Shown: one piece after another, positions 8,040-57,300 of the stretch
Position numbering within the stretch: the stretch's first letter is position 1
Layout of the letters: the number at the start of each line of letters is the position of its first letter
Assembly (NCBI RefSeq): GCF_040183065.1
Contig: NC_091118.1
Span: forward strand, 212,591,029 to 212,655,028
Length of the DNA stretch: 64,000 bases
Source of the DNA: Periplaneta americana
Lineage: Eukaryota; Arthropoda; Insecta; Blattodea; Blattidae
Reading direction: 5' to 3'
Notes under the pieces: generated by a model
Database searches by the model: none
Seen by the model: only the letters and a program-made list of their open reading frames with translations
What the model was told of the DNA's origin: nothing
Made by a program: the position numbers and the translations under genes

Positions 8040-8051
8040 ACATTTTAATCT

Positions 8052-8432
8052 AAATCTACGTATTACTCTGTGAAGAGATTTATTAAATCTACATACTTAG
8101 ACTTCAACAAACAAAATTTGATAACTCAATCCCAAGGGAAAAAATGGAACTCTCTGCATCAAAATCCACAGTTAATTCCCGATTTACCACGAAAATCGTC
8201 TGTAGCTGCATTTAGATTGGCAACAGGCCATGATTGTTTGGCCAAACACCTGCATAGAATTGGAATATATCAGTCCCCTAACTGCCCATTGTGCAACTCA
8301 AACCAAGAAATGGATTCGGAACATCTCAAAATCTGTGCTTCAGTCGCTAGTCATGATAATATCTTTGAAAAATATTGGAGTGCAAGAGGTCAAATGACTT
8401 TATTGTCAAATGCCTGGCATTAGAAAACAACA
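8052..8432 (+). mobile_element. LINE-B copy 1 (3' end only)
   Basis: One open frame covers the last roughly 117 residues of ORF2 ([20 protein letters not shown] and the knuckle [18 protein letters not shown]), ending in TAG and an AAC repeat tail. A 12-bp target-site duplication ACATTTTAATCT at 8040-8051 and 8433-8444 fixes both ends. Confidence 0.9.
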
Positions 8433-8617
8433 ACATTTTAATCTCATGTAGTAAAGTGTTACCTTAAAAACCATGGTTCAAACTGCTCTGGTAACATTTA
8501 ATAATCATGTGAAATGTAATACACATTTAATTATTCCATTTGTTTCTAGTGCGGTAAGTAATTGTAACAGTACTGTCATTTGTTTGTATAGCAACCAGAG
8601 AATGTGAAGTATTGCTG

Positions 8618-24900: not shown

Positions 24901-27900
24901 AAGTTGCTTATGTTGGTGACACTGCTGAGCGTTCTGGTGCGCATGTCTGCGTATTTCTGGCAGTGCCGGGAAGAGCAGGTGGGTTGCGAGTCGTTCACCA
25001 CCCAAAAACTGCATTCTCTGGCTCGCCTCTTCAGCATCCAGTACTGCAACTCCCAGTGTCTGATTGCATCGATTTGCTTGGCTCTCCTCGCAACGGTGGC
25101 TCGCATCTGGCTGCGCAGCTGCGGCAACCTGGTTGGTTTCTCCCCTTCTGTCATCTTATCGCGGTATGGGCCTACGATTGTCGTCGTCTGCACGGGCGGT
25201 TTCTGGGTCTTACACACTTTGCCGAAGGATGCGAAATCGAGGATGTTTCTACCTTGGCAGATCCAGATGCTGCCTTGGATCGTGTATGCGATTGTTTGTG
25301 TCGCCCTCATCACCGTGTTTGCTCAGCCGTTGAGTGTCTACGTGGTTCCTAGGAAGAGGGAGAGTGTTATTGTGCCGATATATGGCCAGACCAACATCAT
25401 CCCGCACCTCTTCAACCAGATGAAAGACTCCATGCAGGCCCGCAGCAAGTCCGGTGATGATCTCCCCATTGTGTACGGTCTGGCAACAGTGTACAGTGCC
25501 GTGCTGGTGAATGTGGGTGTGTTCGTGTGCCTTCTTCTGGCTCTGCTCCTGGGGGACTCGCTGGCGCCTTCTATGGTGTTGCAGGGCACCACCGCAACTC
25601 TCTTGGTTGCCATCCTAGCAGCAGTGCAGTACGAGAGATCGCTTTATACAGGTGAGATCAAAGTTTCTGCAACGCTTGTAAGAAGGGGATATGCTTTAGA
25701 ATCAATCATTCTTCATTTTGAATCTTGCATACACTACTTTTAACACTTGAATATAAGTAATTAACTAGCGGACTTACTCGTGTTAATTATGTAAGTCTGT
25801 GCAGCTTACAGCTGTTTCGGTGCTTCATCACACCATCCTCAGAGCCTACTAGATCTCGGCATCTCGAACTTCTCTGCCTGTTGTGTGGGTGCGTTTGATT
25901 GTTGAAAAGTGTTGAAAAGTGGAGTCAAATAGTGTGTGTGTACTGAAATTGATCTGTGCAAAACACATCCTGATCAAATTCTCAACACACAGATCAATTT
26001 CAGTACACACACACTATTTGACAACACTTTTCAACAATCAAACACACCCACACAACAGGCAGAGAAGTTCGAGATGACGCCGAGATCTAGTAGGCTCTGA
26101 GGATGGTGTGATGAAGCACCGAAACAGCTGTAAGCCGCACAGTCTTACATAATTAACACGAGTAAGTCCGCTAGTTAATCAATTATTCATTCTGATGGTG
26201 AATAAAGTACAGGACTACTATAAATGATTAATTCGATTTCAAAAGACTGTATTTGATACGTGAAGAGAACAACAACCATTATTATAGCTGTAATACAGTA
26301 GAATTCCTCGTATCCGGCAACTATGGGGAAAAAGCCAGTGCCGGATAACGGATTTTGCCGGATAACTGATTTTGCCAGATAATTGGAAAATACGTTTATA
26401 GGTTATGTAAAGACACAGTGTACTGTACGAACATTTTTTTCCACGTTGAAATTTAGTAATTTATAGATATTTAAAAATAAAGTTCTGAAATACGTACAAT
26501 GTTTATTTTTAGTACTGAATACGGTAATGTTGTTGTTGTTGTTGTCTAACGCCAGGCGTTTGACAATAAAGTCATTTGACCTCTTGCACTCCAATATTTT
26601 TCAAAGATATTATCATGACCAGCCACTGAAGCACAGATTTTGAGGTGTTCCGAATCCATTTCTTGGTTTGAGTTGCACAATGGGCAGTTAGGGGACTGAT
26701 ATATTCCAATTCTATGCGGGTGTTTGGCCAAACAGTCATGGCCTGTTGCCGATCTAAATGCAGCTACAGACGATTTTCGTGGTAAATCGGGAATTATGAT
26801 GCAGAGAGTTCCATTATTTCCCTTGAGATTGCATTATCAAATTTTGTTTGTTGAAGTCTAAGTATGTAGATTTAATAAATCTTTTCACAAAGTAATACAT
26901 AGATTTAGTAACAGGTCTGTAAGTAGCAGTGCTGCCTTTCTTTGCTAAAGCATCCGCATTCTTGTTTCCCAGGATTCCACAATGGGATGGTATCCATTGG
27001 AATTCAAGTATTTTGTTGAGTGATATTAATTGAGAGAGCATTTTAGTTATTTCTGCTGTTTGAGATGAAGGTGTGTGTTTAGAGACTATTGATAGAATAG
27101 CTGCTTTGGAGTCTGACAATATAACTGCATTCCTAAATTTATTGATGTGGCATAGAAGATTCCTGAGACTTTCACTTATTGCAATGATTTCTCCATCAAA
27201 ACTTGTTGTTCCATATCCAAGAGATCTATAAAGTGAGAAGAGACAGCACGTAACACCTGCACCGGCACCTTGTTCTCTGGAGATCAAGGATCCGTCGGTG
27301 TATAAATGAAGCCAGTTTTGTGGAGGGTACCTAATATCCTGGGAAATGAGAATGCAGATGCACTAGCAAAGAAGGGCAGCACTGCTACTTACAGACCTGT
27401 TACTAAATTCACGTGTGAAAATATTTATTAAATCTACATACTTAGACTTCAACAAACAAAATTTGTTAACACAATCTCAAGGGAAAAAAATGGAACTCTC
27501 TGCATCATAATCCACAGTTAATTCCCTATTTACCACGAAAATCGTCTGTAGCTGCATTTAGATTGGCAACAGGCCATGACTGTTTGGCCAAACACCTGCA
27601 TAGAATTGGAATATATCAGTTCCCTAACTGCCCATTGTGCAACTCAAATCAAGAAATGGATTCGGAACACCTCAAAATCTGTGCTTCAGTGGCTGACCAT
27701 GATAATATCTTTGAAAACTATTGGAGTGCAAGAGGTCAAAGACTTTATTATCAAACGCCTGGCATTAGAAAACAACAACAACTCACATCTTTTTCCGACT
27801 CTTCCATTTCACATGAATCATTTTTTTTTTTTGACCTAGTCAAAAGTGCCGTTGTTTTGGTATTTCCGGTTATTTGGGTACCGGATACGAGAGATTTTAC

Positions 27901-30900: not shown

Positions 30901-33900
30901 CTTATTGCAGCTCAGCTCTTCCACGTGCCGTGGTCCTCGGTGATGTGTTGGGGCTTCCTCACCGTGTACTTCTTCTATGGAACGGGCCACACGCCCACGT
31001 TTCCTGGTATCCGGTGGGAGGCGGCGTTTGTGGGCACGGGTGGGCAGTTCGTGAGCAATGTAGTGCCCGGCCTGCTGGTGGTGCTCAACACGTTCGCGTC
31101 GCACGTCCTGCTGAGTCTGCTGCTGCCTGCACTCCTCGTGGTGCCCTTCACACTGCACGTCATGTTCCCCCGGCTGCTAGGCGCCGGCAAGGACGACGCC
31201 AAGAGCAAGGACTTGCGGCGCGGCGAGCTGTTCCTGTTCGAGAACGACGACCTGCTGCTGCACGCGCTGTTCCTCCTCTGCACCAAGTTCATCTTGTTCT
31301 TTGCAGTCAGAGTAAGTGCATCTGCAAAAACAAATAGATCATCCTGGGTATTAATACCTCAGCTGAGTCAGTGCTGACTCAATCTTGTCAATAAGCACAG
31401 AATATTTAGATGCCCACCAAAAAATCTACAGGCCCACTTTCTTAGGTAACTAATTTACTGCATTTTAAAGGCAGCTGGCATGATTTGTTAAGAAACCAGT
31501 TAGAATGCATTCTGTTGAGTTAAAGAAGGGATAGATGCTAAGAGGGATGAAGTTACAGGAGAATGGAGAAAGTTACACAACACAGAACTGCACGCATTGT
31601 ATTCTTCACCCGACATAATTAGGAACATTAAATCCAGACGTTTGAGATGGGCAGGACATGTAGCACATATGGGCGAATCCAGAAATGCATATACAGTGTT
31701 AGTTGGGAGGCCAGAGGGAAAAAGACCTTTAGGGAGGCCGAGACGTAGATGGGAAGATAATATTAAAATGGATTTGAGGGAGATGGGATATGATGATAGA
31801 GAATGGATTAATCTTGCTCAGGATAATGGCGGGCTTATGTGAGAGCGGCAGTGAACCTCCGGGTTCCTTCAAAGCCAGTAAGTAAGTAAGATAGATGCTA
31901 ACTAATCCCTTAACCCAGTATTTAAAAGTCCCGGTGTTAAGGTGAGTGAAATTGAGGGGCTGGGTGCAAGAAGGGCATTTTAGAGGATGTGCCCTTTTTG
32001 AGTAAAAGGCTTTATTGTGTTCTCTGATCTTCTATGCATATGATCATCAAGTTGTAGTTCAATACTGTGATTGCAGAGGTCGGGAGTAACCAAAATGTAA
32101 AGGTGTCCATAGGTAACATCATTACGGTTTGAATTTTCAACATCAGTTTTCTTAAAACTTGCATTTGAGAGAAGTGCCTTTGTTGCACCCAACCCCTCAA
32201 TTTATATTTTATATTTAAATGGCAAAATCTTTTATCACCAAGACAAGCCGGTTTTCGACAACTAGACTCTACCAATGAACAAGTCATATGCCTCGGCCAA
32301 GAAATAAAAGACAGTTTTAACAAGAAAGAAGATACCTTGGCAATATTTATTGACTTTCAGTTAGCATATGACTCTGTTTGGAGAAATAAATTATTACTAA
32401 AACTCCAGAAATTAGGTATCTCCAGCAATATGTTCAGACGGATATCAGAATTCCTTAGTCAAAGATTCATTGCACTAAATTCAATAACTCACTTTCTAGT
32501 TACAGACAAACATATCGAGGTCTACCTCAGGGCGCTGTCCTCAGCACAACTTTATTCAATATCTATATAAATGACTTACCCTCCCTATTAGAGGAATCAA
32601 ACATGAAAACAGCACTATTTGCAGATGATATAGTTTTGTGGACTTCCGGATCTTACAGACATAGAGACAAAATTCAAAATTCTGCTCTTAAAGCTCTAAA
32701 TCAACTACATGAATGGAATACATCAAATTTGATGACACTCAATTTAAGCAAAAGTAACTACCAAATATTTTCACCCTGTAAAAAACAAAGAGAATTCAAT
32801 ATCCAATACAATGGCCAACACCTTCCTAGGACTTATGAATCCAAATATCTTGGAGTTATTTTCGATAGTAAGTTAACATGGAGCAACCATTTGAAATACA
32901 TTTCTGAAAAAGCTCGTAAAAGATTCTCCCTTCTAAAAAGACTAGCAGGAAAGAAATGGGGATGCACTAGGATTACTTTGAACACTACATACAAAATCTT
33001 TATACAGCCAGTGCTGACATACTGCGGAGAAATTTTAATTACTTCACCTTTCATAAACGAAATAGAATATGTTCAAAACCAAGCTCTCAGACTCGTTACT
33101 GGTGGAATCAAAACAACGCCAATAGATTCTATGAGATTCCTCACTAATATTAACAGCATCAAAATGACAATAGAAGAAAAAGCACTGATTCAATATGAAA
33201 AACTTATTAGATTACCAGGAAACAATTGGCATTCATACAGTCCTCTCTGTAGATTGAAAACTCAAAAAAGTTTCATATCCATTGTTCAAGAATTAAAACA
33301 GAAAATCAATATTCCGAATTTAAAAGAAAACTTACAAATTAAACCAAACCCTTTAACTCTATTAAATATAGAATATAATCTAAATTTAACAGAAGAAATC
33401 CTAAAATCAGAAGTAAACACTGAAATACTGAGACAATTAATATTAGGTACCCTCCACAAAACTGGCTTCATTTATACACCGACGGATCCTTGATCTCCAG
33501 AGAACAAGGTGCCGGTGCAGGTGTTACGTGCTGTCTCTTCTCACTTTATAGATCTCTTGGGTATGGAACAACAAGTTTTGATGGAGAAATCATTGCAATA
33601 AGTGAAAGTCTCAGGAATCTTCTATGCGTCATCAATAAATTTAAGAATGCAGTTATATTGTCAGACTCCAAAGCAGCTATTCTATCAATAGTCTCTAAAC
33701 ACACACCTTCATCTCAAACAGCAGAAATAACTAAAATGCTCTCTCAATTAATATCACTCAATAAAAGAATTGTATTCCAATGGATACCATCCCATTGTGG
33801 AATCCTGGGAAACGAGAATGCGGATGCTTTAGCAAAGAAGGGCAGCACTGCTACTTACAGACCCGTTACTAAATCTACGTATTACTCTGTGAAGAGATTT

Positions 33901-35824
33901 ATTAAATCTACATACTTACACTTCAACAAACAAAATTTGATAACACAATCCCAAGGGAAAAAATGGAACTCTCTGCATCATAATCCACAGTTAATTCCCG
34001 ATTTACCACGAAAATCGTCTGTAGCTGCATTTAGATTGGCAACAGGCCATGATTGTTTGGCCAAACACCTGCATAGAATTGGAATATATCAGTCCCCTAA
34101 CTGCCCATTGTGCAACTCAAACCAAGAAATGGATTCGGAACACCTCAAAATCTGTGCTTCAGTGGCTGGTCATGATAATATCTTTGAAAAATATTGGAGT
34201 GCAAGAGGTCAAATGACTTTATTGTCAAACGCCTGGCATTAGAAAACAACAACAACATATTTTATACAATTTTTAAGGTAGAGACTTAATATCTTATATA
34301 CTTAATCTGCTTTGTATAAGTATTCTTGCTTATAAATTTGAATATGATCAGATGAAAGGTTTATGAATTATTCAGAATTAAGAAAATATAATTTGCATAT
34401 TTTCAAAATCTATCTCCTCTTACAAAATTTAAGTGTCATGCATCACTCTTTTTTTACAGCATCTCTGATATGGTTAGGAAAGAACTATGTATTCAGAATT
34501 TCAAATTTATATCTATAAATGAGAGAGATGATATGTGTCAGAGGAAGAGCAGTTGTTTGTATGCATCTGAAGTCTGTCTAGTGTAATATGTAGCTAATCG
34601 ACGATGTATGCAATGGAAGGGGAAAGGAACTGGCCACCCTACCCCATTATCTCCTTGCCTACTTGCCTCATAAGTGAATGCTTCTTGGTATCACTTGTGA
34701 GGTTCAGACCTGTCTTCGGACAATTGACTAAACAATGAGAAAGAAAACTTTAAAAATGATATGCAACTTCAAGAAATCCCAAAAAGACAAAGTATATGAT
34801 TATGTCTCGTGACCATAATATTGTACGAAATGGAAATATAAAAATTGGAAATTTATCCTTTGAAGAGGTGGAAAAATTCAAATATCTTGGAGCAACAGTA
34901 ACAAATATAAATGACACTCGGGAGGAAATTAAACGCAGAATAAATATGGGAAATGCCTGTTATTATTCGGTTGAGAAGCTTTTATCATCCAGTCTGCTGT
35001 CAAAAAATCTGAAAGTTAGAATTTATAAAACAGTTATATTACCGGATGTTCTATATGGTTGTGAAAATTGAACTCTCACTTTGAGAGAGGAACATAAGTT
35101 AAGGGTGTTTGAGGAAAATATTTGGGGCTAAGAGGGATGAAGTTACAGGAGAATGGAGAAAGTTACACAACATAGAACTGCACGCATTGTATTCTTCACC
35201 TGACATAATTAGGAACATTAAATCCAGACGTTTGAGATGGGCAGGGCATGTAGCACGTATGGGCGAATCCAAAAATGCATATAGAGTGTTAGTTGGGAGG
35301 CCAGAGGGAAAAAGACCTTTGGGGAGGCCGAGACGTAGATGGCAAGATAATATTAAAATGGATTTGAGGGAGGTGGGATATGATGGTAGAGACTGGATTA
35401 ACCTTGCACAGGATAGGGACCAATGGCGGGCTTATGTGAGGATGGCAATGAACTTCCAGGTTTCTTAAAAGCCAGTAAATAAGTAATCACAGTAGACAAG
35501 AAAGATGACATGTTCCTTGAACTAATAATTTCTGCACCCTGTCAGTCATCTCCATTCTGTTGTCTCCTACCTCTGAACAGTAACTGTTCGGCAGTAACAC
35601 ATAGGTATTACCGTGTTGTGTTGCAGATGTTCGCGTGCATGCTGGCTGCCACGATCCATTGCCGCCATCTCATGGTGTGGAAGATATTCACGCCCAAGTT
35701 CATCTTCGAGGGCCTCGGCCTGTTTGTTGTGCTTGTTTGTGTGTCCGTTAGCTACCTGCTGGTTGTCCGAGTCACAGCACAGATAGAGGCACTCATGCTG
35801 TGGCTGAACAAGGACAACAGGTGA
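15044..35824 (+). CDS. PIGO: PIGO, GPI ethanolamine phosphate transferase 3 (complete, five exons)
   Basis: The enzyme adds phosphoethanolamine to the third mannose of the GPI anchor in the ER membrane, with PIGF as stabilising partner; this is the bridge later joined to protein. Exons 15044-15906, 19042-19112, 23918-25651, 30911-31311 and 35627-35824 join in frame to 1088 residues; the human protein is about the same. Residues 7-27 form the N-terminal membrane anchor. The luminal alkaline-phosphatase-like domain shows D107 (IIIDALKFDF), the threonine nucleophile (PPTTTMQ, 157-159), GDD (206-208), VDHCGHRYG (262-270) and GDHGM (304-308). The C-terminal half is a series of membrane helices. 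The junctions reproduce the conserved MNDML-x-DDDT and GDHGM-DHGGDSE spacing. Introns are 3-5 kb and largely transposons. The first ATG of the long frame is used as start. Confidence 0.95.
15907..16622 (+). other. PIGO intron 1, left part
   Basis: Ordinary AT-rich intron sequence with T-runs near 16120 and 16210. It ends in the 15-bp target copy TATGTTCATAAAATT (16608-16622) of a LINE-A insertion. Confidence 0.5.
16623..17100 (+). mobile_element. LINE-A copy 3
   Basis: C-terminal ORF2 fragment from [16 protein letters not shown] to the GTAA tail. The frame shifts near 16905. The TSD TATGTTMATAAAATT (16608-16622 and 17101-17115; one mismatch, M = C or A) marks both ends. Confidence 0.9.
18138..18181 (-). 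ncRNA. Hammerhead ribozyme motif, left arm
   Basis: Minus strand: GGCT, CTGAGGA, a hairpin closed by GTG/CAC, GAA, palindrome ACAGCTGT, A, AGCC. GGCT pairs with AGCC as stem I. All core positions of CUGANGA...GAAA...UH are kept. Confidence 0.6.
18450..18493 (+). ncRNA. Hammerhead ribozyme motif, right arm
   Basis: Same motif as in the left arm, now on the plus strand: GGCT 18450-18453, CTGAGGA 18454-18460, GAA 18478-18480, ACAGCTGT 18481-18488, AGCC 18490-18493. Stem II has only three good pairs. Confidence 0.6.
19042..19112 (+). CDS. PIGO: PIGO exon 2
   Basis: 71 bp between TCTATTTACAG and the donor ACAG|GTACCT. Encodes LVMDTVDDDTMVIVAGDHGM plus TGT, carrying the metal ligands D305 and H306. 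Phase 2 in, phase 1 out; the spacing to exon 1 matches human PIGO residue for residue. Confidence 0.92.
19179..20032 (+). mobile_element. Mariner-like element with long inverted repeats, internally deleted
   Basis: Arms of about 90 bp begin CAGGGTGCTCTAAAATTCCC and close with the complement ending CACCCTG, flanked by TATA on both sides. The interior reads WPPQSPDLTPLDFFLWGRMK and further to GGRHIEL, the C-terminal third of a mariner-type DDE transposase, with a stop at 19645-19647. The same design as 9087-9797 but a different family. Confidence 0.8.
20088..21261. mobile_element. MITE with a hAT element nested in its right inverted repeat
   Basis: Left arm CACAGTCTAGTATATACAGT... (20088-20117) returns inverted from 20241. 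The right arm is broken at 20266 by the hAT element and finishes as TGTG at 21258-21261. The target copy GAGTAGC stands at 20081-20087 and 21262-21268. Without the insert the MITE is 183 bp and non-coding. Confidence 0.65.
20267..21249 (+). mobile_element. hAT transposon, internally deleted
   Basis: An exact 8-bp TSD TACTAGAC (20259-20266 and 21250-21257) and terminal repeats CAGCCGTGGCGAAAATG / CATTTTCGCCACGACTG identify a hAT element. The frame 20770-20997 encodes the C-terminal dimerisation end: FATTYVCEKLFSTMKIVKTK followed by RLTDKYFRDQLRLAVS. The rest of the transposase is lost, so it cannot move by itself. Confidence 0.8.
21269..22221. other. PIGO intron 2, no gene recognised
   Basis: AT-rich. 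A TTTATTTATTTATTTAATCC stretch at 21706 resembles LINE tails on the minus strand, but no coding remnant was read. Confidence 0.45.
22224..23575 (+). mobile_element. Tc1-like DNA transposon, near-intact
   Basis: Inverted ends CAGTAGCGTGCAAATTAATC... and its complement finish at 23575, each flanked by the TA target (22222-22223, 23576-23577). Total 1352 bp. The single transposase gene fills most of it. Confidence 0.92.
22469..23488 (+). pseudogene. Tc1 transposase with one internal stop
   Basis: The frame from ATG 22469 to TGA 23488 spans 340 codons and is broken only by TGA at 22607-22609. The N-terminal helix-turn-helix region (MDTTPRKRSKIITLAEHSSM onward, then RQIAAECHIG) and a basic stretch (KKGNCGRKRKT) precede the DDE domain. 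Its acids are D in LFSDESHF, D in VFQQDLAPCH and E in NINPIENLW. Thirty-four residues separate the last two, which makes it DD34E as in Tc1. The low number of defects points to a recent insertion into PIGO intron 2. Confidence 0.9.
23578..23917 (+). other. PIGO intron 2, right end
   Basis: Unremarkable sequence up to the acceptor GTTTGTGCAG. Confidence 0.4.
23918..25651 (+). CDS. PIGO: PIGO exon 3
   Basis: 1734 bp between acceptor TTTGTGCAG and donor ACAG|GTGAGA. Begins DHGGDSEAEVTAAMFVYSS, completes the phosphatase-like domain (IDLVPTLAAILGLPIPYANL) and continues with at least eight hydrophobic segments. Long antisense frames here follow from its GC-rich codons. Codon use is much more GC-rich than exon 1. 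Confidence 0.95.
25803..25846 (-). ncRNA. Hammerhead ribozyme motif, left arm
   Basis: Minus strand GGCT, CTGAGGA, T, GGTG-loop-CACC, GAA, ACAGCTGT, A, AGCT. Stem I pairs three of four bases. Confidence 0.55.
26093..26136 (+). ncRNA. Hammerhead ribozyme motif, right arm
   Basis: GGCT 26093-26096, CTGAGGA 26097-26103, stem II GGTG/CACC (26105-26108, 26117-26120), GAA 26121-26123, palindromic stem III ACAGCTGT 26124-26131, A 26132, AGCC 26133-26136. All core bases and stems are intact, the best copy in the window. Confidence 0.65.
26186..26525. other. PIGO intron 3, no gene recognised
   Basis: Short inverted motif CCGGATAA around 26340-26370; otherwise plain AT-rich sequence. Confidence 0.4.
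26526..27337 (-). mobile_element. LINE-B copy 2, left half of a head-to-head pair
   Basis: Minus strand frame encodes RNase H ([27 protein letters not shown]) and the knuckle. The 3' AAC tail lies at about 26529. It breaks off at the codons for NIRYPPQNW, where the opposite-strand copy begins. Confidence 0.85.
27338..27783 (+). mobile_element. LINE-B copy 3, right half of a head-to-head pair
   Basis: Starts at [18 protein letters not shown] and ends in the AAC tail. The frame is broken near 27407 and 27555. With copy 2 it forms an inverted repeat of about 440 bp per arm. Confidence 0.85.
27784..28873. other. PIGO intron 3, no gene recognised
   Basis: About 1.1 kb without recognisable coding or repeat ends. 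Confidence 0.45.
28878..29226. mobile_element. TTAA-type MITE (piggyBac-like target), first of two
   Basis: Ends GGGGACACGCTACTGAG and its complement CTCAGTACCGTGTCCCC (one mismatch), each flanked by TTAA at 28874-28877 and 29227-29230. Non-coding, 349 bp. Confidence 0.6.
29771..30026 (-). mobile_element. tRNA-derived SINE (S1 family)
   Basis: Box B complement GGAATCGAACCC near 29960 and the S1 tail TACGACGCTGTATCAAC. 15-bp TSD AACAYATTTCATTTT at 29756-29770 and 30027-30041 (one mismatch). Confidence 0.8.
30074..30690 (+). mobile_element. LINE-A copy 4
   Basis: From AVTNINDTLEEIKHRINMGN-type codons through the open frame 30135-30608 to the GTAA tail. A frameshift lies near 30185 and a premature TAG at 30606-30608. 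Confidence 0.88.
30911..31311 (+). CDS. PIGO: PIGO exon 4
   Basis: 401 bp from acceptor CCCTTATTGCAG to donor CAGA|GTAAGT. Encodes AQLFHVPWSSVMCWGFLTVY through three or four membrane helices and the polar loop GAGKDDAKSKDLRRGEL to FILFFAVR. Very GC-rich, strongly biased to C- and G-ending codons. Phase 1 in, phase 0 out. Confidence 0.95.
31542..31889 (+). mobile_element. LINE-A copy 5 (shortest)
   Basis: Last 350 bp of LINE-A. TSD GATAGATGCTAA at 31530-31541 and 31890-31901. An 8-bp deletion removes part of the DRDQW codons near 31823. Confidence 0.9.
31949..32203. repeat. MITE-like element
   Basis: AAATTGAGGGGCTGGGTGCA at the left returns inverted as TGCACCCAACCCCTCAATTT at the right (one mismatch in 20). 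255 bp, non-coding. LINE-B copy 4 begins immediately to its right. Confidence 0.55.
32214..34256 (+). mobile_element. LINE-B copy 4 (longest; RT, RNase H, knuckle)
   Basis: TSD ATATTTTATA at 32204-32213 and 34257-34266. Domain order: RT fingers/palm (SPRQAGFRQLDSTNEQVICL, FIDFQLAYDSVW), catalytic LFADDIVLW (32617-32643), thumb, RNase H ([37 protein letters not shown]) and C-terminal [18 protein letters not shown]. Frames: 32337-32570, 32603-33493 and 33490-34242, with shifts near 32515 and 33440. The endonuclease ORF part is absent. RNase H places it with I-type LINEs. Confidence 0.9.
34267..34772. other. PIGO intron 4, no gene recognised
   Basis: Plain intron sequence. Confidence 0.4.
34773..35486 (+). 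mobile_element. LINE-A copy 6
   Basis: Same ORF2 end as other copies, with two frames (34796-35071, 35109-35468) separated by a stop at 35069-35071 and a deletion near 35112. It ends about 140 bp before PIGO exon 5. Confidence 0.88.
35627..35824 (+). CDS. PIGO: PIGO exon 5 (terminal)
   Basis: Acceptor TGTTGTGTTGCAG, phase 0. Encodes MFACMLAATIHCRHLMVWKI, FTPKFIFEGLGLF and a last membrane helix, ending LNKDNR and TGA at 35822-35824, in line with the human C-terminus. Confidence 0.95.
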   Translation: MFACMLAATIHCRHLMVWKIFTPKFIFEGLGLFVVLVCVSVSYLLVVRVTAQIEALMLWLNKDNR

Positions 35825-42342: not shown

Positions 42343-45300
42343 GTTAATATAGTGCTGCAAGAATTTGAATTGAATAGGCTATTGGCCCCTACATTATAAG
42401 GTTATGACTATGTTGAGGTGCAAAGGCTAAAGTAGTGTTTATATATTTTATTTGTAGATCAATCAGTACGTAATGCAAATGAAGAAGAAGATATCACGGA
42501 AAGGAGTTCATTGTCTACACCAGAAGAAACGTCGTGTGATTCATCGGAAAAGAGTGCTTCAATTCAGAAATATGAGTAAGTAAACGTCACTGTGACACTT
42601 GAAACCTTGACATCTAGGCTTTAGAATTCATTTGATTACTTCCATCAAATGTTTCATGTGACGTTTATGTTAAATTGCAGAAACTTCAGCTTCGGTTTTG
42701 ATCCTTTAACAAATCAGTGATCCCAGAACAGTAATTAAAGACGTAGTTTATACCTTTGTACAAAACCACCCCCTTTTTACTACGTCGCTGTTACTCCTGC
42801 ACATCGTTAGTGTGTGGTGCTCTCAATAATGTTTTCTGTAAATATAAAAGTGGCCAACTCCAAGGTTTCAGAAGTACATATAAATTATATTTGACCTATG
42901 TAGTTAAGCCTAGTATTTCAGACCAGTACATACAAATAAGAAAAGGGGCTGAGAATCAATTGAAGTTGAACAACCATGTAAAATAATTTTAATAACACAT
43001 AATACAAGATTGAGCATCACACTTCTCCGAGAGGTATCGAAAGTCAGTTCACTATAAACTAACCGCTGGCATAGCTCGGTCGGTTAAAGCTCTTGCCTGC
43101 CGATCCGGAGTTGCGCTCGAGCTCGGGTTCGATTCCCGCTTGGGGTGATTACCTGGTTCGGTTTTTTCTGAGGTTTTTCCCCAGCCGTAAGGCAAATGTC
43201 AGGTAATCTATGGCGAATCCTCGGCCTCATCTTGCCAAATATCATATCGCTATCACCAGTTCCATCGACGCTAAATAACCTCGTAGTTGATACAGCGTCG
43301 TTAAATAACCAAGTAAAAAAAAACTATAAAGTAATCTTATCTTATAAAGATAAAAAGTTTCGGTGAATGTAGAATATCTAACGCCCACTGAACGAATATT
43401 TCACTTTCATCACTGCCAATGTTGCGCTATAATCTTATATGCAAGGTAGGCTATAACAAAAACCTAAACTAACCAAACCTAACCTGTCAAAGAAGCAACA
43501 AGTTATACTAAATATGTGTAAAATTGGCCTATGTCTCTATAGTGGGCGGGACATAAGTAACATTGACCAAAGTTTCTAAACATCATACAATGGAAGAGTT
43601 GAAACCAAAGATTTATAGATAAGTTATGAATTAATAGGCTATAGCATTGCATTCATGTTATTAATAGGAATTTCCGACGAGTGTTAATTATTTTCAGTCT
43701 TTCATTATCTCTGTAATATTATAATAGTCTATACAACCGGAAAACCATACCTCAACTTTCTTACAAAGATAGGCCTAATGGGATTATTACAATAATATAG
43801 GCCTAATGGGAGACTGGAAACGGCATTCAGTGGGAATTCCTGTTAGTGTACTAGTAAATCTCCAGGAAAGCTACACCCAAGGCACAATTTTCGTTAGCTT
43901 CATTGGAATCCATGAGATGTATATAGAAATAAACACGTGGTTTTAATTTGCAGCCGCAAATACTTTCAACATAAAAATCGTTTGATACTTACCTGTAAGT
44001 TACATACTAATGCACTCTTGTAGCCTTCTCCCCCCATATTACTAATATTACCAACACAACATGCGAGAGGTCCAGGGTGAATAGACTAGGGAAATGGTCA
44101 GTTTTCCTAATATTGCGTCTTGGACCTCTAGAGTGTTTTATTTGTATGTATATACATTATACACATTGGTTCTGTCGAGTTTGGCAGAACTGTAAAATAA
44201 AGTGAAAGCACTAATAATTAACTTAAACGTTTTTATGCACTGCATGAACGTCTAATACACAGTAAAAGCTGACTGTATGGTGTGTTGTTTTTGCTAGAGT
44301 CATCCTTAATCACTACTTTTTACAAGATGAAAATGAGAGATTTATTACATTATTCAGAGACGAACTAAACAGAAATAGCATTTGTTTGCAACAAGATTGC
44401 CCAAACTGCCAGAGACATTCTGTGGTTGTTGAGAAATCTTTTTCCTGAATGTTTAATTTCTCGGTTTGGCGATAACTGGCCGGCTCGATCCCCAGACCTT
44501 ACAGCTGCTGATTTTTTTCTGTGCGGATACCTCAAGGAAAGGGTGTTTCAAACCAGACTACGATGTGTCCCAGCCACTGGCTTGGCTCAGTGTCCCAGCC
44601 ACCGGCTTGGCTCAGTCGGTTAAGGCACTTGCCTGCTGGTCTGAAGTTGCGCTCAGGCATGGGTTCGATCCCTGCTTGGGTTGATTACCTGGTTGGGTTT
44701 TTTCCGAGTTTTTCCCCAACCGTAAAGTGAATGCCAGGTAATCTATGGCGAATCCTCGGCCTCATCTCGCCAAATACCATCTCGCTATCACCAATCTCAT
44801 CGACGCTAAATAACCTCGTAGTTGATACAGCGTCGTTAAATAACCAACTAAAAAAAGAACGATGGTCCAGGATCTGAAGAACAGGCTACAGGCAAATGTC
44901 CCAGGTTTATTGCAACGTGTCATGAACAACTTTTGGGTGAGATTGCAACAAACCATAACATCCCAAAGGGATCATTTTCAAAAAATAATACGTCAGTAAA
45001 CTGCATTGTTCCAGCCATATTCTATGTTATTTTGATATTTCTAACCCCTATGGTCACTTTAGAACAGCGTGCTGAAATCCGTCAGAATCAGCTCCCGAAC
45101 CCTTCTTCTTCTACGTCATGGCTAGGATCAGTTTTCTCTTGCCTTGTATTCTAATACTTTTCTTGTTAATCTGGTACTGTCCATTCAAGTTGTTCAAACC
45201 AGTACTATACAAAATATGTGAAGTAGCCTACCATCTCACCGGAAGTAATGCTTTAACGACAAATATATATCATATATCATATCATATCATATATCATATC

Positions 45301-48300
45301 ATATCATATCATATATCATATCATATCATATCATATATCATATCATATCATCACTTCGTTATAATGTCCATGTTTATAATGCCATGCTCCACACAAAGCA
45401 CTTCACTAGTCTCTTCCTTAGTTCCTTTTCCAGAGGTCCCCAGAAGATGCTCCCTTTTCTATTAAAAGCTCCCTTTGCCATTGCAATCCTCCTTTTGACT
45501 TCCTGGCAGCAGCTCATGTTACTGCTTATAGTACACCTCAAGTATTTGAAGCTGTCCACTTGGTCTACTGCCTCATTTAATATTCACACGTTTACCGTCT
45601 TTATTTTTCTTCCTATGACCATGGTCTTCGTCTTATTTGCATTTATCTTCATTCCATACTGTTCACAGCTGTCATTTAGCTTCAGTATCATATCACTTAG
45701 TATCATCTCCTCTTGTGTCAACGCCATATCATCAGCAATCTTACGCTTGCTATTATTTTTGCATATATTTTATATGGGACATCAAGGAGACTTATACTGC
45801 AATATTTATTGCAATCATTTTCATTTCTGTCCCTGTTTTTAGAAACAGAACTGCCGGACCCTGTATCATTAAATTAAGAAACGTCAGACATTTAACGACT
45901 TCTCTAATAGTTCCTCCTTGGCATTAAGCTTATGGGAGCTATTGTTATGCTTTGAGCATTACCCATCTTCATCATGAATAATTTCGAGGGAAAAATTGTT
46001 CCGGGGCCGGGTATCGAACCCGGGACCTTTGGTTAAACGTACCAATGCTCTACCAACTGAGCTACCCGGGAACTCTACCGACACCGATCCAATTTCTCCC
46101 TCTATATCCACAGACCTCAAAGTGGGCTGACAACCTTCAAGCAATCAACATTGAGTGCACACTAACTCTGTGTGACTTAAATTGTGGTTTTCTATTAACG
46201 AACAGTGACGTATATTAACTGAGCATTACCCTTCTTCATTAAGCTTTGCCTCTTTTTGCCGCGAAATGCACTCCAGAATTAAGTTCGAGGCTGTGTAGCC
46301 TACTCACCCCGCTGTGTTTGTGCAGGGAGGAGTGGGCCCAGCTGTACAGGCGGGATGACCCAGAGCTGGGGGAGCTGCGTCGCAGGGCTGTTCTGGGGAA
46401 CCTCCGAGCCTCCCGCTTCCGCAGTGTGTGCTGGCGTGCCCTCCTGGGAGTTCTGTCGCCTGACACATCCCAGTGGCTGACCCAGCTGCTGCAGCAGCGT
46501 CAGCACTATGCCAGAGTGCTCAAGGAGCTGTCCCTAGACCCGTGGGACAGGAGCCAGCCTGAAGACGATCCTTTGTCACAGAAGGCTGAGGTAAATGGTG
46601 TGACTTTTTAATTATCTTTCTTCTCTAGTAAATTTGGCAATAATTCCTTCCACTTTGGTGCAAATGATGTCACTCCTGGGTACAAACCGACTGGACCCAG
46701 ATCCGATTTCCAGCAGGAAAATGAATATCCATGATCTGAAATTTTCAATTTTCTGAACTACTCAAACTAGAGAACTGAAAATTTGTATAGTTATCATACT
46801 GCATATAAATAGTCCCTGTGCAAAGTTTGATCTAGTTTGGTTAAGAATTGTGTGGGTAATTATGTTGTTGTTTTCTAATGCCAGGCATTTGACGATAAAG
46901 TCATGTGGGTAATTATGTTGTTGTTTTCTAATGCCAGCCATTTGACGATAAAGTCATGTGGGTAATTATGTTGTTATTTTCTAATGCCAGGCATTTGATG
47001 ATAAAGTCATGTGGGTAATTATATTGTTGTTTTCTAATGCCAGGCGTTTGTCGATAAAGTCATGTGGGTAATTATGTTGTTGTTATTTTCTAATGCCAGG
47101 CATTTGACGATAAAGTCATGTGGGTAATTATGTTGTTATTTTCTAATGCCAGGCATTTGTCGATAAAGTCATGTGGGTAATTATGTTGTTATTTTCTAAT
47201 GCCAGGCACTTGACGATAAAGTCATGTGGGTAATTATGTTGTTATTTTCTAATGCCAGGCATTTGACGATAAAATCATGTGGGTAATTATGTTGTTATTT
47301 TCTAATGCCAGGCATTTGTCGATAAAGTCATGTGGGTAATTATGTTGTTATTTTCTAATGCCAGGCATTTGACGATAACGTCATGTGGGTAATTATGTTG
47401 TTATTTTCTAATGCCAGGTGTTTGACGATAAAGTCATGTGGGTAATTATGTTTGTTATTTTCTAATGCCAGGCACTTGACGATAAAGTCATGTGGGTAAT
47501 TATGTTGTTATTTTCTAATGCCAGGCATTTGACGATAAAGTCATGTGGGTAATTATGTTGTTATTTTCTAATGCCAGGCATTTGACGATAAAGTCATGTG
47601 GGTAATTATGTTGTTGTTTTCTAATGCCAGGCATTTGACGATAAAGTCATGTGGGTAATTATGTTGTTATTTTCTAATGCCAGGCATTTGACGATAAAGT
47701 AATGTGGGTAATTATGTTGTTGTTTTCTAATGCCAGGCATTTGACGATAAAGTCATGTGGGTAATTTATGTTGTTGTTTTCTAATGCCAGGCATTTGACG
47801 ATAAAGTCATGTGGGTAATTATGTTGTTGTTTTCTAATGCCAGGTGTTTGACGATAAAGTCATGTGAGTAATTATGTTGTTGTTTTCTAATGCCAGGCAT
47901 TTTGACGATAAAGTCATGTGGGTAATTATGTTGTTGTTTTCTAATGCCAGGCATTTGACGATAAAGTCATGTGGGTAATTATGTTGTTGTTTTCTAATGC
48001 CAGGCGTTTGACGATAAAGTCATGTGAGTAATTATGTTGTTGTTTTCTAATGCCAGGTGTTTGACGATAAAGTCATGTGAGTAATTATGTTGTTGTTTTC
48101 TAATGCCAGGCATTTGACGATAAAGTCATGTGGGTAATTATGTTGTTGTTTTCTAATGCCAGGCATTTGACGATAAAGTCATGTGGGTAATTATGTTGTT
48201 GTTTTCTAATGCCAGGCATTTGACGATAAAGTCATGTGGGTAATTATGTTGTTATTTTCTAATGCCAGGTGTTTGACGATAAAGTCATGTGGGTAATGAT

Positions 48301-51300
48301 GTTGTTATTTTCTAATGCCAGGCATTTGACGATAAAGTCATGTGGGTAATTATGTTGTTATTTTCTAATGCCAGGCATTTGACGATAAAGTCATGTGGGT
48401 AATTATGTTGTTGTTTTCTAATGCCAGGTGTTTGACGATAAAGTCATGTGGGTAATTATGTTGTTGTTTTCTAATGCCAGGTGTTTGACGATAAAGTCAT
48501 GTGGGTAATTATGTTGTTGTTTTCTAATGCCAGGTGTTTGACGATAAAGTCATGTGGGTAATTATGTTGTTGTTATTTTCTAATGCCAGGCATTTGATGA
48601 TAAAGTCATGTGGGTAATTATGTTGTTATTTTCTAATGCCAGGCATTTGACGATAAAGTCATGTGGGTAATTATGTTGTTGTTTTCTAATGCCAGGTGTT
48701 TGACGATAAAGTCATTTGGGTAATTATGTTACCTGTTATAACAATGCTGATAAAATATAAAAATCACATTTTCGAAGTTAATGTTGGTTTGAGAGAATTT
48801 TGTTGTTAAGAAGTGGTGGTAGAGTAATAAAAGTATTTTTTTTTTTTGTGTGTTTATTTGATTTTTGTGATTTTACTTGTTTTGTGGTAGACATGGTTTG
48901 TGCTACAGTTGTCTTTGGATGATTATGCTTCTTCTCGGTCTATTTTTCGATGTCCAATGGATATCAGTTTTAACGTCAGATTTGTGAATATGTAATTAAT
49001 AAAGAGTCGATGGTTTTGGGATTTTCAAAGGGACCATCACTGAACTTCGATAATTTTCTGTGAAGACACGGCTTATTGTCCGATAAATATATATGTGAAA
49101 TATTGAAGGATTTCGATCATTGCTTACTGTCCGATAGATGTGTATGTACAAATTGTGGAACTATGGAAGAAACGAGTTTTCGAGGGTCAGGGTCGAGGGT
49201 TAGTGACAGATTAGGTTTAGTTTGTTCAGGCTTTTTGGTATGCATTTCAAGTACGTTTTTGGTAGTTAAGTAGATACAGCAGATAGAAAGCGTGTTTCTG
49301 TAAGCTTGAAGGTTAGTGACAGGTTAGGTTTGGTTTATTGAGGCTTTTATTAGTAGCCTGTACATACGGTTTTTGGTAGATAGGTACCGTAGTACACAAA
49401 TTACAGGTATAATTGTGCTACGTTAATGAAAATTGCCGAAACAATTACAAGTAAAAATTAAAATATGAGCTATAAACTTCTAAAGGAAGTCTTGACATTA
49501 ACATAAGAAGAATAACATTTTTAGTAGAGAAAAAGATACTTAGGATTTTTCCTAAGCCGAGAAAAATGAGTTTAAAAGTTTGGAACTGTATAGATGAAAG
49601 TGAACACATGCAATTTCTTCCAACTCTAACAGATGATTGGACAGCTCTATGGGGATGGAAATTTATGGAGAGCTATTTTAGACCTTAAGCAAGAGTGACT
49701 ATAACGCCAAGGAACATGAGAGGCAATTTACTGATAAGTACGAATGCTCTACTGTTACCAACTACTACTACTACTGCTGCTGATGATAATAATAATAATA
49801 ATAATAATAATATGTTGTTGGTGGTGTTGTTTTCTAATGCCATGCGTTTGACAATAAAGTCATTTGACCTCTTGCACTCCAATATTTTTCAAAGATATTA
49901 TCATGGCCAGCCACTGAAGCACAGATTTTGAGGTGTTCCGAATCCATTTCTTGGTTTGAGTTGCGCAATGGGCAGTTAGGGGACTGATATTTTCCAATTC
50001 TATGCAGGTGTTTGGCCAAACAATCATGGCCTATTGCCAATCTAAATGCAGCTACAGACGATTTTCATGGTAAATCGGGAATTAACTGTGGATTATGATG
50101 CAGAGAGTTCCATTTTTTCCCTTAAGATTGTATTATCAAATTTTGTTTGTTGAGGGAGATGCATTGTCACCTCTACTTTTTAACTTTGCTCTAGAATATG
50201 CCATTAGGAAAGTTCAGGATAACACAGAGGGTTTGGAATTGAACGGGTTACATCAGCTTCAGTGTCTATGCGGATGACGTGAATATGTTAGGAGAAAATC
50301 CACAAACAATTAGGGAAAACACGGAAATTCTACTTGAAGCAAGTAAAGCGATAGGATTGGAAGTAAATCCCGAAAAGACTAAGTATATGATTGTGTCTAG
50401 TGATCACAATATTGTACGAAATGGAAATATAAAAATTGGAGATTTATCCTTCGAAGAGGTGGAAAAATTCAAATATCTTGGAGCAACAGTAACAAATATA
50501 AATGACACTCAGGAGGAAATTAAACGCAGAATAAATATGGGAAATGCCTGTTATTATTCGGTTGACAAACTTTTGTCATCTAGTCTGCTGTCAAAAAATC
50601 TGAAAGTTAGAATTTATAAAACAGTTATATTACCGGTTGTTCTGTATGGTTGTGAAACTTGGACTCTCACTTTGAGAGAGGAACATAGGTTAAGGGTGTT
50701 TGAGAGTAAGGTGCTTAGGAAAATATTTGGGGCTAAGAGGGATGAAGTTACAGGAGAATGGAGAAAGTTACACAACACAGAACTGCATGCATTGTATTCT
50801 TCACCTGACATAATTAGGAATATTAAATTAAGACGTTTGAGATGGGCAGGGCATGTAGCATGTATGGGCGAATCCAGAAATGCATATAGAGTGTTAGTTG
50901 GGAGGCCGACGGGAAAAAGACCTTTGGGGAGGCCGAGACGTAGATGGGAGGATAATATTAAAATGGATTTGAGGGAGGTGGAATATGATGATAGAGACTG
51001 GATTAATCTTGCTCAGGATAGGGACCAATGGCGGGCTTATGTGAGGGCGGCAGTGAACCTCCGGGTTCCTTAAAAGCCAATAAGTAAGTAAGTAAGAGGT
51101 CTAAGTATGTAGATTTAATATATTAATGTTGTCGTCATTGCTTCCAGAGCATCTGGCATCAGTACTTCTGTGACAAGGAGCTGAGAGCAGTTATCAGGCA
51201 GGACGTGGTTCGGACCTTCCCAGGGGTGGACTTCTTCAGGAAAAACATGATACAAGATGCGATGGTCAACATCTTGTTCTGCTATGCTCGAGAAAACCCC

Positions 51301-54300
51301 ACCATGTGTTACCGTCAGGTGAGCAGAGTTTATAGCTTGATATACATTTAAATGGTTGGATGCAAGCTGCTGGGTTTATCTTCTTCTTTGAGCGATATAG
51401 TTGTGCTGTGCCAGCATGAAAGTTCATTTTAGTTTTAATAGAATTTGAGTTTGGTACATCTGAATTATTCCGGCTAGGAATTAAGAAGGTGTGGACCTAA
51501 TAATCGTTGTACCCTTGCAGGGCATGCACGAGATACTGGCCCCATTGCTGTTTGTTCTGCACTGCGACCATCAGGCCCTGCTGCACACCAAAGAACAAGT
51601 GCCGATCAGGTAAATTCAGTTCTTGTCTCTTGCTCTAAATGAAAGAAAGGAACAACTGGATAATACCCACGGCAGACCAATATCGATAGCCGAAGCAATT
51701 CGCTGGCCACTAGTCACCGGGCCGTACCGAGCCGTATCAAACAAAATATAATCGAAATGGTGGTAGTCAAATTCGCGACTATATTCTTAAATAATTCACT
51801 CCATTAGTCAAGTTCAAGGTTTTATGTAGTACAACGGCGGTTTTTTGAATGCATTAAAAGAAAATGAAGATGTAGTAAGATCATAAACTAGGTTATCACA
51901 AGGAAATTAACAGGAAAAAAGGTGTGTTTCACGGAATACCATTAAAATGACGGAAAGTAAATTTCCGGTTAAAGTTCGCCAAAGCGTAAAGTACGTAATT
52001 ATGACGGCGTTGCTGTTTTATTTCTGGCCTATAGAAAAATACCTAGCCTTTTACGAAAAAAAATTTTAGGGACCATGAAATTATTCACCACTTTTATTAT
52101 AGGCCTATTAATTTTTTATCAATATTACGAATCAAAAACAGTCATATTATATAATTTTAACTACTACATGGACGAATGAAATCAAGCTAACCTAACCAAA
52201 GCTAACCTAACCTAAGCTAACCTAACCTAACCAAAACTAACCTAACCTAAGCTAAGCTGACCTAACCTAAGCTAACCAAAGCTAACCTAACCTAACCAAA
52301 GCTAACCTAACCAAAGCCAACCTAACCTAACCTTTGTAAATGCAAGGTCTGTAACCAAATCAAGAAGATATCTCAATAATTTAATCTGCAATGTACACTC
52401 AAAAATAAATTCAAGTAAGGATCACGCTCCCACTACATGAGAGGTCCACGCATGCGCTACAGCAAAACTGTTTCTGTCCCGAGCCTCTCATCTAAGGCAC
52501 TCGTCATAATTTACTCGCAACATTTACGCAAATACACATTGTCGCTAACAGTGGTGCTATCTCTCAATAATGTTCAGAAGGAAGGAGGTAGACAGAGAGA
52601 GAGAAAAAAAGAAATATAGCACAAAACTATTTTGTCTCGAGACTCTCATCTAAAACACGTAATAAGTCACATAATCTACTTGCAATATATTTGCGCAAAT
52701 ACACTTTGTAGCTAACACTGGTGCTATCTCTCAGTAATGTTCAGAACGAAGGAGGCAGAGAGAGAGAGAAAAAAATTTCTCCCGCCAACTACGCCACACA
52801 CCAACGTCATGTTCTTATGTTGGTGACATTGTGTATTTACTTAAATTTGGTGGTAAATGTAACGGCACGGTTCAAAGTGACCGTGGTAATTCTCCAGTAT
52901 AGCGGAAAGAAATTAATACAGAACCTAAGGCAGAATGTAGGCCTAGTTCAGTTCACACCGGTACTCGAATTGTTATGTCTGTAAAGTAATAACATCTGCC
53001 ATCATATGGGTTACTGCACTCAGCACATAGTCTACTTACATTGTTATAGAAGGGAAATGTGTACCTGAAAATAAAAACAAGAACGCCATCTCCTTTACTT
53101 TTACATTGTTCTAAGCATAAAAAAAAAAAAATGTATGTACAGAGTGTCTCTAAAGTAGACTGACAAATTGTATTAGCCACAGAGTAAAGAAGAATGCCCG
53201 TCAGAACCTCACAGTCCTATTTTAAATATTTTTCAAGTTATCATTCTGTGAATCTCTTAAAGTCCAGTCACAATAATGAAAGTCAGACAATGTTTGAATT
53301 GCCAAAAGATGAGAAAGAGTATGTGTTATTTGTAGGAAAGACATTCTCGGTGTTTTGTTTCTTTTCAACCTAACTCAAGCGTGATTAGGCAGTGTATGAA
53401 GAAATATTCTCTGAGTCCATGGCAAGATAGAAGTTCAACAGTTCCATGCCAGGTATAGTCCTGTCTTATTTCCGGCAGCCAATCATGTTGCAGGTCGGCT
53501 ACATTTAAACGTGTGTGTCTTGTGATTTACTGATGATGACGTTATGCATTTCCTAAGGCTCGATAAATGCTTAATATGTTGCTTGTTGTTTTCTAATGCC
53601 AGGCGTTTGACAATAAAGTCATTTGATCTCTTGCACTCCAATATTTTTCAAAGATATCATCATGACTAGCCACTGAAGCACAGATTTTGAGGTGTTCCTA
53701 ATCCATTTCTTGGTTTGAGTTGCACAATGGGCAGTTAGGGAACTGATATATTCCAATTCTATGCAGGTGTTTGGCCAAACAATCATGGCCTGTTGCCAAT
53801 CTAAATGCAGCTACAGACGATTTTCGTGGTAAATCGGGAATTAACTGTGGATTATGATGCAGAGAGTTCCATTTTTTCCCTTGGGATTGTGTTATCAAAT
53901 TTTGTTTGTTGAAGTCTAAGTATGTAGATTTAATAAATCTCTTCACAGAGTAATACGTAGATTTAGTAACGGGTCTGTAAGTAGCAGTGCTGCCCTTCTT
54001 TGCTAAAGCATCCGCATTCTCGTTTCCTAGGATTCCACAATGGGATGGTATCCATTGGAATAGAATTCTTTTTTTGAGTGATATTAATTGAGAGAGCATT
54101 TTAGTTATTTTTGCTGTTTGAGATGAAGGTGTGTGTTTAGAGACGATTGATAGAATAGCTGCTTTGGAGTCTGACAATATAACTGCATTCCTAAATTTAT
54201 TTATGTGGCATAGAAGATTCCTGAGCCATTCACTTATTGCAATGATTTCACCATCAAAACTTGTTCCATATCCAAGAGATCTATAAAGTGAGAAGAGACA

Positions 54301-57300
54301 GCACGTAACACCTGCACCGGCACCTTGTTCTCTGGAGATCAAGGATCCGTCGGTGTATAAATGAAGCCAGTTTTGTGGAGGGTACCTAATATTAATTGTC
54401 TCTAAAGACAATTGTTTCAGTGTTTCTGTGTTTACTTCTGATTTCAGTATTTCTTCTGTTAAATTTAGATTATATTCTATATTTAATAGAGTTAAAGGGT
54501 TTGGTTTAATTTGTAAGTTTTCTTTTAAATTCGGGATATTGATTTTCTGTTTTAATTCTTGAACAATGGATATGAAACTTTTTTGAATTTTCAATCTACA
54601 GAGAGGACTGTATGAATGCCAATTGTTTCCTGGTAATCTGATAAGTTTTTCATATTGAATCAGTGCTTTTTCTTCTATTGTCATTTTGATGCTGTTAATA
54701 TTAGTGAGGAATCTCATAGAATCTATTGGCGTTGTTTTGATTCCACCAGTAACGAGTCTGAGAGCTTGGTTTTGAACATATTCTATGTCGTTTATGAAAG
54801 GTGAAGTAATTAAAATTTCTCCGCAGTATGTCAGCACTGGCTGTATAAACATTTACATTGTTATAGAAGGGAAACGTGTACCTGAAAATAAAAACAAAAA
54901 CGCCATCACCTTTACTTTTACATTGTTCTAAGCATAAAAAAAATGTATGTACAGAGTGTCTCTAAAGTAGACTGACAAATTGTATTATCCACAGAGTAAA
55001 GAAGTATGCCCGTCAAAACCCCACAGCCCTATTTTAAATATTTTTCAAGTTATCATTCTGTGAATCTCTTAAAGTCCAGTCACAATAATGAAAGTCAGAC
55101 AATGTTTGAATGACCAAAAGATGAGAAAGAGTATGTGTTATTTGTAGGAAAGACATTCTCGGTGTTTTGTTTCTTTTCTACCTAACTCAAGAGTGATTAG
55201 GCAGTGTATGGAGAAATATTCTCTGAGTCCATGGCAAGGTAGAAGTTCAACAGTTCCATGCCAGGTAGAGTCTCGTCTTATTTCCAGCAGCCAATCATGT
55301 TGCAGGTCGGCAACATTTAAACATGTGCGTCTTGTGATTTGCTGATGATGACGTTATGCATTTCCTAAGGCTCGATAAATGCTTAATATAATCGCCCGCC
55401 GTTTTGGCTCTTTCATTGGTGTTCACGGAAAGCACACGAGGACGTTATTTGCCACTCAATCATTTGCTCAATTACAGTGCGTTTGATTTATTATCATAGG
55501 AGCTACGACATGATCATGTTTAACGGTGTGGTAGCTTAGCAACGAAAGAACAAAAATGGCGAACGATACTACCTACCTAGATTTTATAGAGCCTTCACTT
55601 CCTAAGACGTAAACAAAGAAGAGGAGTCATGCTGGGAATAACAGCGTCACGACTATAATATATGTATGATGTACATAAACACACTGCCTAATCACAAGCA
55701 TATTTACTTATTTATTTATTATTTTTATTTAATTGAACATACCAAAAAAATTTGTGGGTTTATTTTTGAGATACCCTGTATAATCTTAAGCTGCAAATGA
55801 TACCGTGAGGATTGTACAGTGAAATTTTAATGTCAAAGAAGTACGATCTGCACCTCCAGTTAAAAACTTCGGACAGAGGTTTTGGGAATAAATTTACATG
55901 AATTTCTGTGTACTAATATGGTTTAAAACATAATGAATAGATGTATACCACTCGGTTCAAAAAATTTCCAGAATATATTTTTTCGTTGAAATGAATAATG
56001 TTATATGGTATATTTATGTTTCTGGTGTTGGCATCATTCGTGATGTCACTTCCGTACAAATTTCATGATCATAGTCATTGTTGTTGAGTAGCAATTGTCT
56101 GTTTTTGTTTGTGTGATATTCGTTCGTTGCATTTCAGAATGAAGACTGTGTGAATAACAAAGATAACCAGCACTCTGGTCGACCTACAGAAAAACGTTTA
56201 TGTCAGGCATAGACCTGCGTTGTTTTCATTGCTGCTTCACCATAAGCTTCTTGAAGCATTCTTAATATCTCTAAAAAAACACGTTGCTCTGTATCCTACA
56301 TTCTGAAATGCGACGAAACAATATTACATAAACAACAGCCAATTGCCACACAACAACAATGACTATGATCATGAAACTTCTGCAGAGGTGACGTCATGAA
56401 TTATGCCAACACCAGAAACAGAAATATGTTTTTACAATTTTCCATGGCCACTTTTGGGATCATTTAACCCATTTTGCTTCTTGCCTCCCAGTAAAGAGCA
56501 CTCAGATTCTACACTGCTGCACTTCTTTCTTCAGTTTAGTGCATTGAAGCAGATGTTCTTTGTTCATTGACGATACTGGTATGCTGCACAGTGGATTTTC
56601 TTCAGTGTTGTAAATTCCAATCTTACAAAGATGTGATGCAAGGCAGGCATGTTCTGTATTCAGCCTGAAAATAGCTACGGCTTTCCTGAGTTTTAGGCTG
56701 TATGTCTTCCAAAGTTGATTTATTTCTGTCCATTTTTCCCCTTGTGATTCCTGATTATATTTGTAGCATTTCTGCTTCTAATTTATTTTTAATTTTGATA
56801 CCTAATGTGTGAGCACTCGTAGTTTCATTTTGTCTAAGTAATTTTGTGCATATAGAGTGTTAATTGGGAGGGCAAAGGGAAAAAGACTTTTATGCTCGAC
56901 CATGCCGAAATGTAGTAATTATACACCAGGTAGTAGCCCTTTAATGCACCTCATTAAAGTACAACTATTCATTATAGTTCAGTTGTTCAGCCAATGAGAA
57001 ATCACCATTGTACCATTATAAAACCGCAAGTATCGATTATTATTCTCGGATATGCAATCGAAAGACAATTAGCGAAAAGTCACGGAGGCTGGAAATCCAA
57101 TACTGTCGCAGAAGGTTATGTTCTGTTACTATAATAATTAGCGTTAATTGTAAATAATATTCAAATAAATTCAATTTGTCATGTCGTTTTTCAATTCTAA
57201 ATCAATTTCCAGGTTATATCAATATTAATGTTCATGTTATTCTCTAGATTATATCAAGATCAATGACATTCGTCCCTCGGAAAAAATCAGTACTTTCGCG

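Follow-up and report, generated by a model that had tools for sequence, protein, structure and literature searches.

A minisatellite in a cockroach intron whose unit joins a LINE 3' end to its probable target-site duplication

The host intron and its tandem array

The 64-kb stretch of Periplaneta americana DNA analysed here (hereafter the window) contains a tandem array that lies within an intron of a TBC-domain gene, possibly TBC1D5 (Table 1). That the array occupies an intron of such a gene had been proposed in a preliminary description of this DNA and is borne out by the flanking exons. The two exons that border the intron, joined to the next exon, match the RabGAP-TBC domain (PF00566 of Pfam, E 1.9e-16), a further exon at 61477-61734 matches the same domain (E 1.5e-06), and the matches of the gene among sequences of solved structures are to the TBC1 family members 22B, 20 and 17 and to GYP1. 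On its own, the first exon had no match in either domain or structure searches.

Table 1. Coordinates of the features discussed, as positions in the window
Feature	Position	Strand	Remarks
LINE-B c8	8050..8435	+	Perfect 12-bp duplication ACATTTTAATCT (8040-8051, 8433-8444)
LINE-B c26	26531..27337	-	
LINE-B c27	27336..27782	+	Head to head with c26
LINE-B c34	31901..34257	+	Longest copy examined, with stretches of reverse transcriptase and RNase H; the start reflects the query and is not a proven 5' end
Intron holding the array	46591..51147	+	TBC-domain gene; GT...AG, phase 0, borders read by eye
Minisatellite array	46852..48728	+	35 units of 53-56 bp, then a closing 13-mer
Left target-site duplication copy (putative)	46853..46866	+	TGGGTAATTATGTT, 11-14 bp by assignment of the GTT overlap between tail and target
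LINE-B 3'-terminal 40 bp, first unit	46865..46904	- (LINE sense)	ORF2 end ...NAWH-stop plus CAA tail
LINE-B part, last unit	48676..48716	-	48716 (T) is the LINE-B base; G at 34 of 34 internal junctions
Right target-site duplication copy (putative)	48717..48730	+	14-bp exact block, followed by flank ACCTG...
LINE-B c49	49819..50153	-	Same intron as the array
LINE-B c53	53573..54854	-	Between direct repeats of about 540 bp

Minisatellites consist of units of roughly 10-100 bp that are arranged head to tail over about 0.5 kb or more, and variation in copy number between individuals is usual for them, not essential. The array fits this description, with a 53-bp unit repeated head to tail in 35 copies over 1.88 kb. 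Tandem Repeats Finder reports a period of 53, 35.3 copies and 95% matches over 46851-48730, and cutting at a recurrent 13-mer, of which there are 36 starts, gives 35 complete units, 30 of them 53 bp long, three of 54 bp and two of 56 bp. Both counts agree with the approximately 35 units estimated earlier, and the 36 starts, the last of them at 48716-48728, likewise confirm that the array begins and ends with the 13-mer; the label "satellite" is too strong for a single array of 1.9 kb.

Among the 36 starts the 13-mer is exact in 29, carries one mismatch in six and has a one-base insertion in the remaining one (47757). When up to two mismatches are allowed, it matches 36 times in the window, 35 times inside the array and once outside (at 51991, with two mismatches), where chance alone would give about two matches. 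No second copy of the whole 53-bp unit occurs in the window outside the array, and an exact scan of the viral_contigs collection for the unit junction, which carries little weight for this eukaryotic genome, gave no match.

LINE-B in the unit and elsewhere in the window

Each unit combines about 13 bp of local sequence with some 40 bp from the 3' end of a LINE, which lies in the opposite orientation to the TBC gene; we retain the name LINE-B from the preliminary description, without assignment to a clade. The window has six other LINE-B copies, whose 3' ends agree with the 40-bp half to 90-97.5% over 38-40 bp, and this half terminates in ...CATTAGAAAACAACAA, the 3' end common to those copies. 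It corresponds to the end of ORF2 (MTLLSNAWH, stop) and a CAA tail, and in the copy c34 the ORF2 end and stop are followed by AAAACAACAACAACA. What had been called a "LINE tail" is thus LINE-B 3' end as stated, but it is mostly coding sequence with a short CAA tail and almost no 3' UTR. The earlier division of the unit into 13 bp of target and the last 40 bp of LINE-B in inverse orientation holds for composition and orientation, but not for the exact split, which is offset by one base and involves a duplication of 11-14 bp. Folding of the tail and of the unit shows no unusual stability (z of -0.33, 0.12 and -1.29), which leaves a structured recognition site for the reverse transcriptase unsupported.

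The six other copies are all longer, at about 335 bp or more as against 39-42 bp for the remnant in the array, and they are pairwise 94-98% alike over the stretches that they have in common. The longer ones encode both a reverse transcriptase (RVT_1, E 2.9e-14) and RNase H (RNase_H, E 3.2e-10 and 3.6e-12), the combination by which LINE-B was judged to be a non-LTR element, together with a zf-RVT match (E 5.8e-4) that falls below the curated cut-off. Exact scans for the LINE-B tail in the viral_contigs and genome_contigs collections, which cover viruses and prokaryotes and say little about a eukaryote, gave no match, and a scan of viral_contigs, within the same virus and prokaryote collections, for LINE-B protein gave 11 pattern matches, none of which was confirmed.

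With the borders used, a clear short duplication was found in c8 alone among the six copies. None was evident at the borders used for c26, c27, c34 and c49, perhaps because the 5' borders of these four are nested or wrongly set. The ends of c53 meet direct repeats at 53036-53577 and 54853-55389 that are 95% alike over ~540 bp, and these are possibly a very long target-site duplication. The copies c26 and c27 both have 3' tails, and their 5' ends meet within 2 bases. A related LINE family at 59411-59918 (~59.9 kb) has a CAA tail, and in one frame it can be read to MASLPDARH-stop, an end similar to that of LINE-B ORF2.

An ATG directly precedes the TTG-type tail at seven of eight junctions, counting the six LINE-B copies, the array and one related family, and is absent in c27. 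This shared motif is weaker evidence than it appears, because the second target repeat of c53 lacks the G, which may there come from the tail.

Target repeats, junctions and the origin of the array

The longest exact block common to both ends of the array is 14 bp, so that direct repeats of 14 exact bases stand at both borders of the LINE sequence. In 200,000 shuffles of the flanking bases, the longest repeat in contact with both LINE borders was 12 bp, a length that occurred once. The last three bases of the block, GTT, could come from either the target or the LINE tail, which puts the duplication at 11-14 bp and the insert at 39-42 bp; under any assignment of the overlap the two add up to 53 bp, the length of the unit. 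The 13-bp target duplication proposed earlier accordingly stands as a direct repeat at both LINE borders, but the true block is 11-14 bp and is shifted by one base, since the first G of the proposed 13-mer belongs to the left flank and is replaced at the right end by a T, as in LINE-B.

That single base bears on the history of the array. Read in LINE sense, the corresponding sequence is TCAAATGACTTT in five of the six other LINE-B copies and TCAAAGACTTT in c27. The last junction of the array is CCCAAATGACTTT, in which ATGAC is preceded by the A of the LINE (T on the + strand), and all 34 internal junctions have C in LINE sense (G on the + strand), the ten bases around them reading GTCATGTGGG in 29 and differing by one neighbouring change in the other five. 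With the LINE base at its last junction, the right end of the array has the appearance of the original 5' junction of the LINE, with an overlap of CA, and this supports, without proving, an origin in a target duplication. It is also possible that the base arose by chance mutation, as about one third of changes at that position would yield the LINE base.

Our reading of the origin is based on the tandem array itself, on the match of the 40 bp to a LINE, on a direct repeat that lies exactly at both borders of this LINE sequence, and on a last junction that keeps the LINE base. To this reading, in which a truncated LINE-B insertion and its target duplication were amplified into the array, we assign a probability of roughly 0.85. 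A LINE-B cut to its last 39-42 bp would have inserted into the intron, presumably by target-primed reverse transcription, with duplication of 11-14 target bases. The resulting pair of target copies would then have acted as short direct repeats, so that one copy together with the insert, 53 bp in all, may have been duplicated by slippage, by unequal exchange or through a brief template switch, and from two units onward ordinary minisatellite turnover could have carried the array to 35. The earlier proposal that a LINE insertion with its own target-site duplication had been amplified to about 35 units is retained in its core, with the boundaries of the duplication and the description of the tail revised. 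Some observations count against our reading: a clear short duplication is seen in c8 alone among the six other copies, the remnant is far shorter than any of these, and the G at the internal junctions, which also adjoins the target in the left flank, is not expected from crossing-over inside the duplication. Probably the join made in the first duplication lay one base beyond the target repeat, or else the G may have arisen or spread early.

A longer founder LINE was rejected, as 48729-49818 contains no significant LINE-B match; searches of this segment and of 44852-46851 gave three weak matches (E 0.048, 0.088 and 0.64), none of them significant. The proposed origin predicts an empty site that reads AAGAATTGTGTGGGTAATTATGTTACCTG, with one copy of the 14-mer, and an array that is unique in the genome.

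Three other histories were weighed. The array could be a piece of a dispersed 53-bp satellite that formed elsewhere and moved into the intron, its matching ends merely reflecting the phase of the cut. We consider this improbable, in that a satellite cut in phase would not predict a LINE-B base, in place of the unit's own base, at the last junction, and the window holds no further whole unit. Slightly less probable still, the direct repeat would not be a target-site duplication at all, and the 40 bp would be repair filler or the product of a template switch between pre-existing short repeats, amplified afterwards; the remnant is indeed very short, and microhomology joining would fit the overlap of CA at the 5' junction of the LINE, but the fragment stops at the LINE 3' tail and its junction is like other LINE-B junctions, as target-primed insertion predicts. 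We give the least credence to repeated LINE-B insertions into one target, or repeated template jumping during one insertion, for although the literature describes tandem elements that form by several insertions into a shared duplication (in the passages cited from PMC12628747 and PMC9659126), such a course would need the identical truncation point 35 times, where varied points would have favoured it and the constant one speaks against it, and template jumping on LINE RNA would not copy a genomic 13-mer into each unit.

The units themselves retain some record of later change. Among the 35 there are 21 distinct sequences, with a mean pairwise difference of 2.68 alignment columns (gaps counted), or ~5%, and adjacent units are barely more alike than random pairs (p 0.073). 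Along the array, the tail variant GTTGTTTTC / GTTATTTTC occurs in clusters (11 runs, p 0.008), and the states of the first CpG site, which are CA in 25 units, TG in eight and CG in two, are scattered (p 0.36). This site is CG in five of the six other LINE-B copies and CA in c8, so that CG is likely to be ancestral, and the TG and CA states fit CpG deamination on either strand, as if the site had decayed both ways; we infer that it was methylated. Local duplication together with recurrent CpG change, or else gene conversion, would explain the combination of clustered tail variants and scattered CpG states. The second CpG of the unit is absent from all six other copies and thus was probably the founder's own.

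Known routes to tandem arrays and possible consequences

The route proposed here, from short direct repeats to a minisatellite, is already published; in this case the repeat is a target-site duplication, and the locus is a single and unusually legible one. In the model of Haber and Louis (1998) and Taylor and Breden (2000), as presented in the portions of PMC3389668 drawn upon here, a stretch flanked by repeats of 5-10 bp is duplicated by slippage or unequal crossing-over. The intronic array resembles that model, so far as those portions describe it, in that a stretch between short direct repeats has been duplicated and the array ends in an incomplete unit, and it is bounded by a short direct repeat that is also present in each unit. 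It differs in the length of the repeat, 11-14 bp in place of 5-10 bp, and in that the origin of the repeat can be identified as a LINE target-site duplication. The same portions of PMC3389668 (Ahmed and Liang 2012) count 7,276 human tandem arrays derived from transposable elements, of which 300 are flanked by direct repeats of 5-20 bp and 6,817 are explained by neither of the models considered, the majority of them having two units. Those flanking repeats are not tied by name to target-site duplications, the terms "target site" and "TSD" occurring 0 times in the main text (PMC3389668).

Satellites derived from LINE 3' ends are also on record, the extracts used from PMC9659126 naming the common cetacean satellite from L1, chicken HinfI from CR1 and one from HeT-A, and discussing target-site duplications as substrates for repair and recombination. 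These share with the present array a tandem unit taken from the 3' part of a non-LTR element, but they are, in those extracts, named satellites, whereas here there is one short intronic array whose unit includes target sequence. When transposable elements insert twice into one target (McGurk and Barbash 2018, as quoted in the cited part of PMC12628747), a target-site duplication likewise comes to lie between tandem copies; for the cockroach array, one insertion followed by duplication at the DNA level suffices. A small literature search of titles and the beginnings of abstracts, which is no proof of absence, found among the papers listed none on a minisatellite with a unit composed of a LINE fragment and its own target-site duplication.

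If the empty site is confirmed, the locus would be a compact record of how a minisatellite starts, with the founder insertion, the target copies, the LINE junction and the units all still readable. Very short LINE insertions with intact target duplications may be over-represented among the founders of minisatellites, because slippage should be easier where the gap between the target copies is small.

In the transcript of the gene the array lies antisense to LINE-B and, being inverted, would contribute to the intron RNA only the complement of LINE-B sequence. Judging from the sequence, it is conceivable, if very unlikely, that such an intron transcript, complementary to the 3' end of LINE-B mRNA in 35 places, could be a source of small RNAs against LINE-B, and hence an accidental silencer to which the insertion of the element itself gave rise. 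If LINE-derived bases alone are counted, 11 of the 35 units match one of the window's LINE-B copies perfectly over at least 25 consecutive bases, and the longest such run is 29.

Other repeats share the window with the array. Another abundant LINE family, whose tail is GTAAGTAAGTAAG, is spread over about 6.6-62.3 kb (families D2-D4, D9 and D11, with 9-10 copies per repeat family in the window), and a degenerate CTAAC array at 52184-52333 resembles an interstitial telomere repeat of the insect type (TTAGG).
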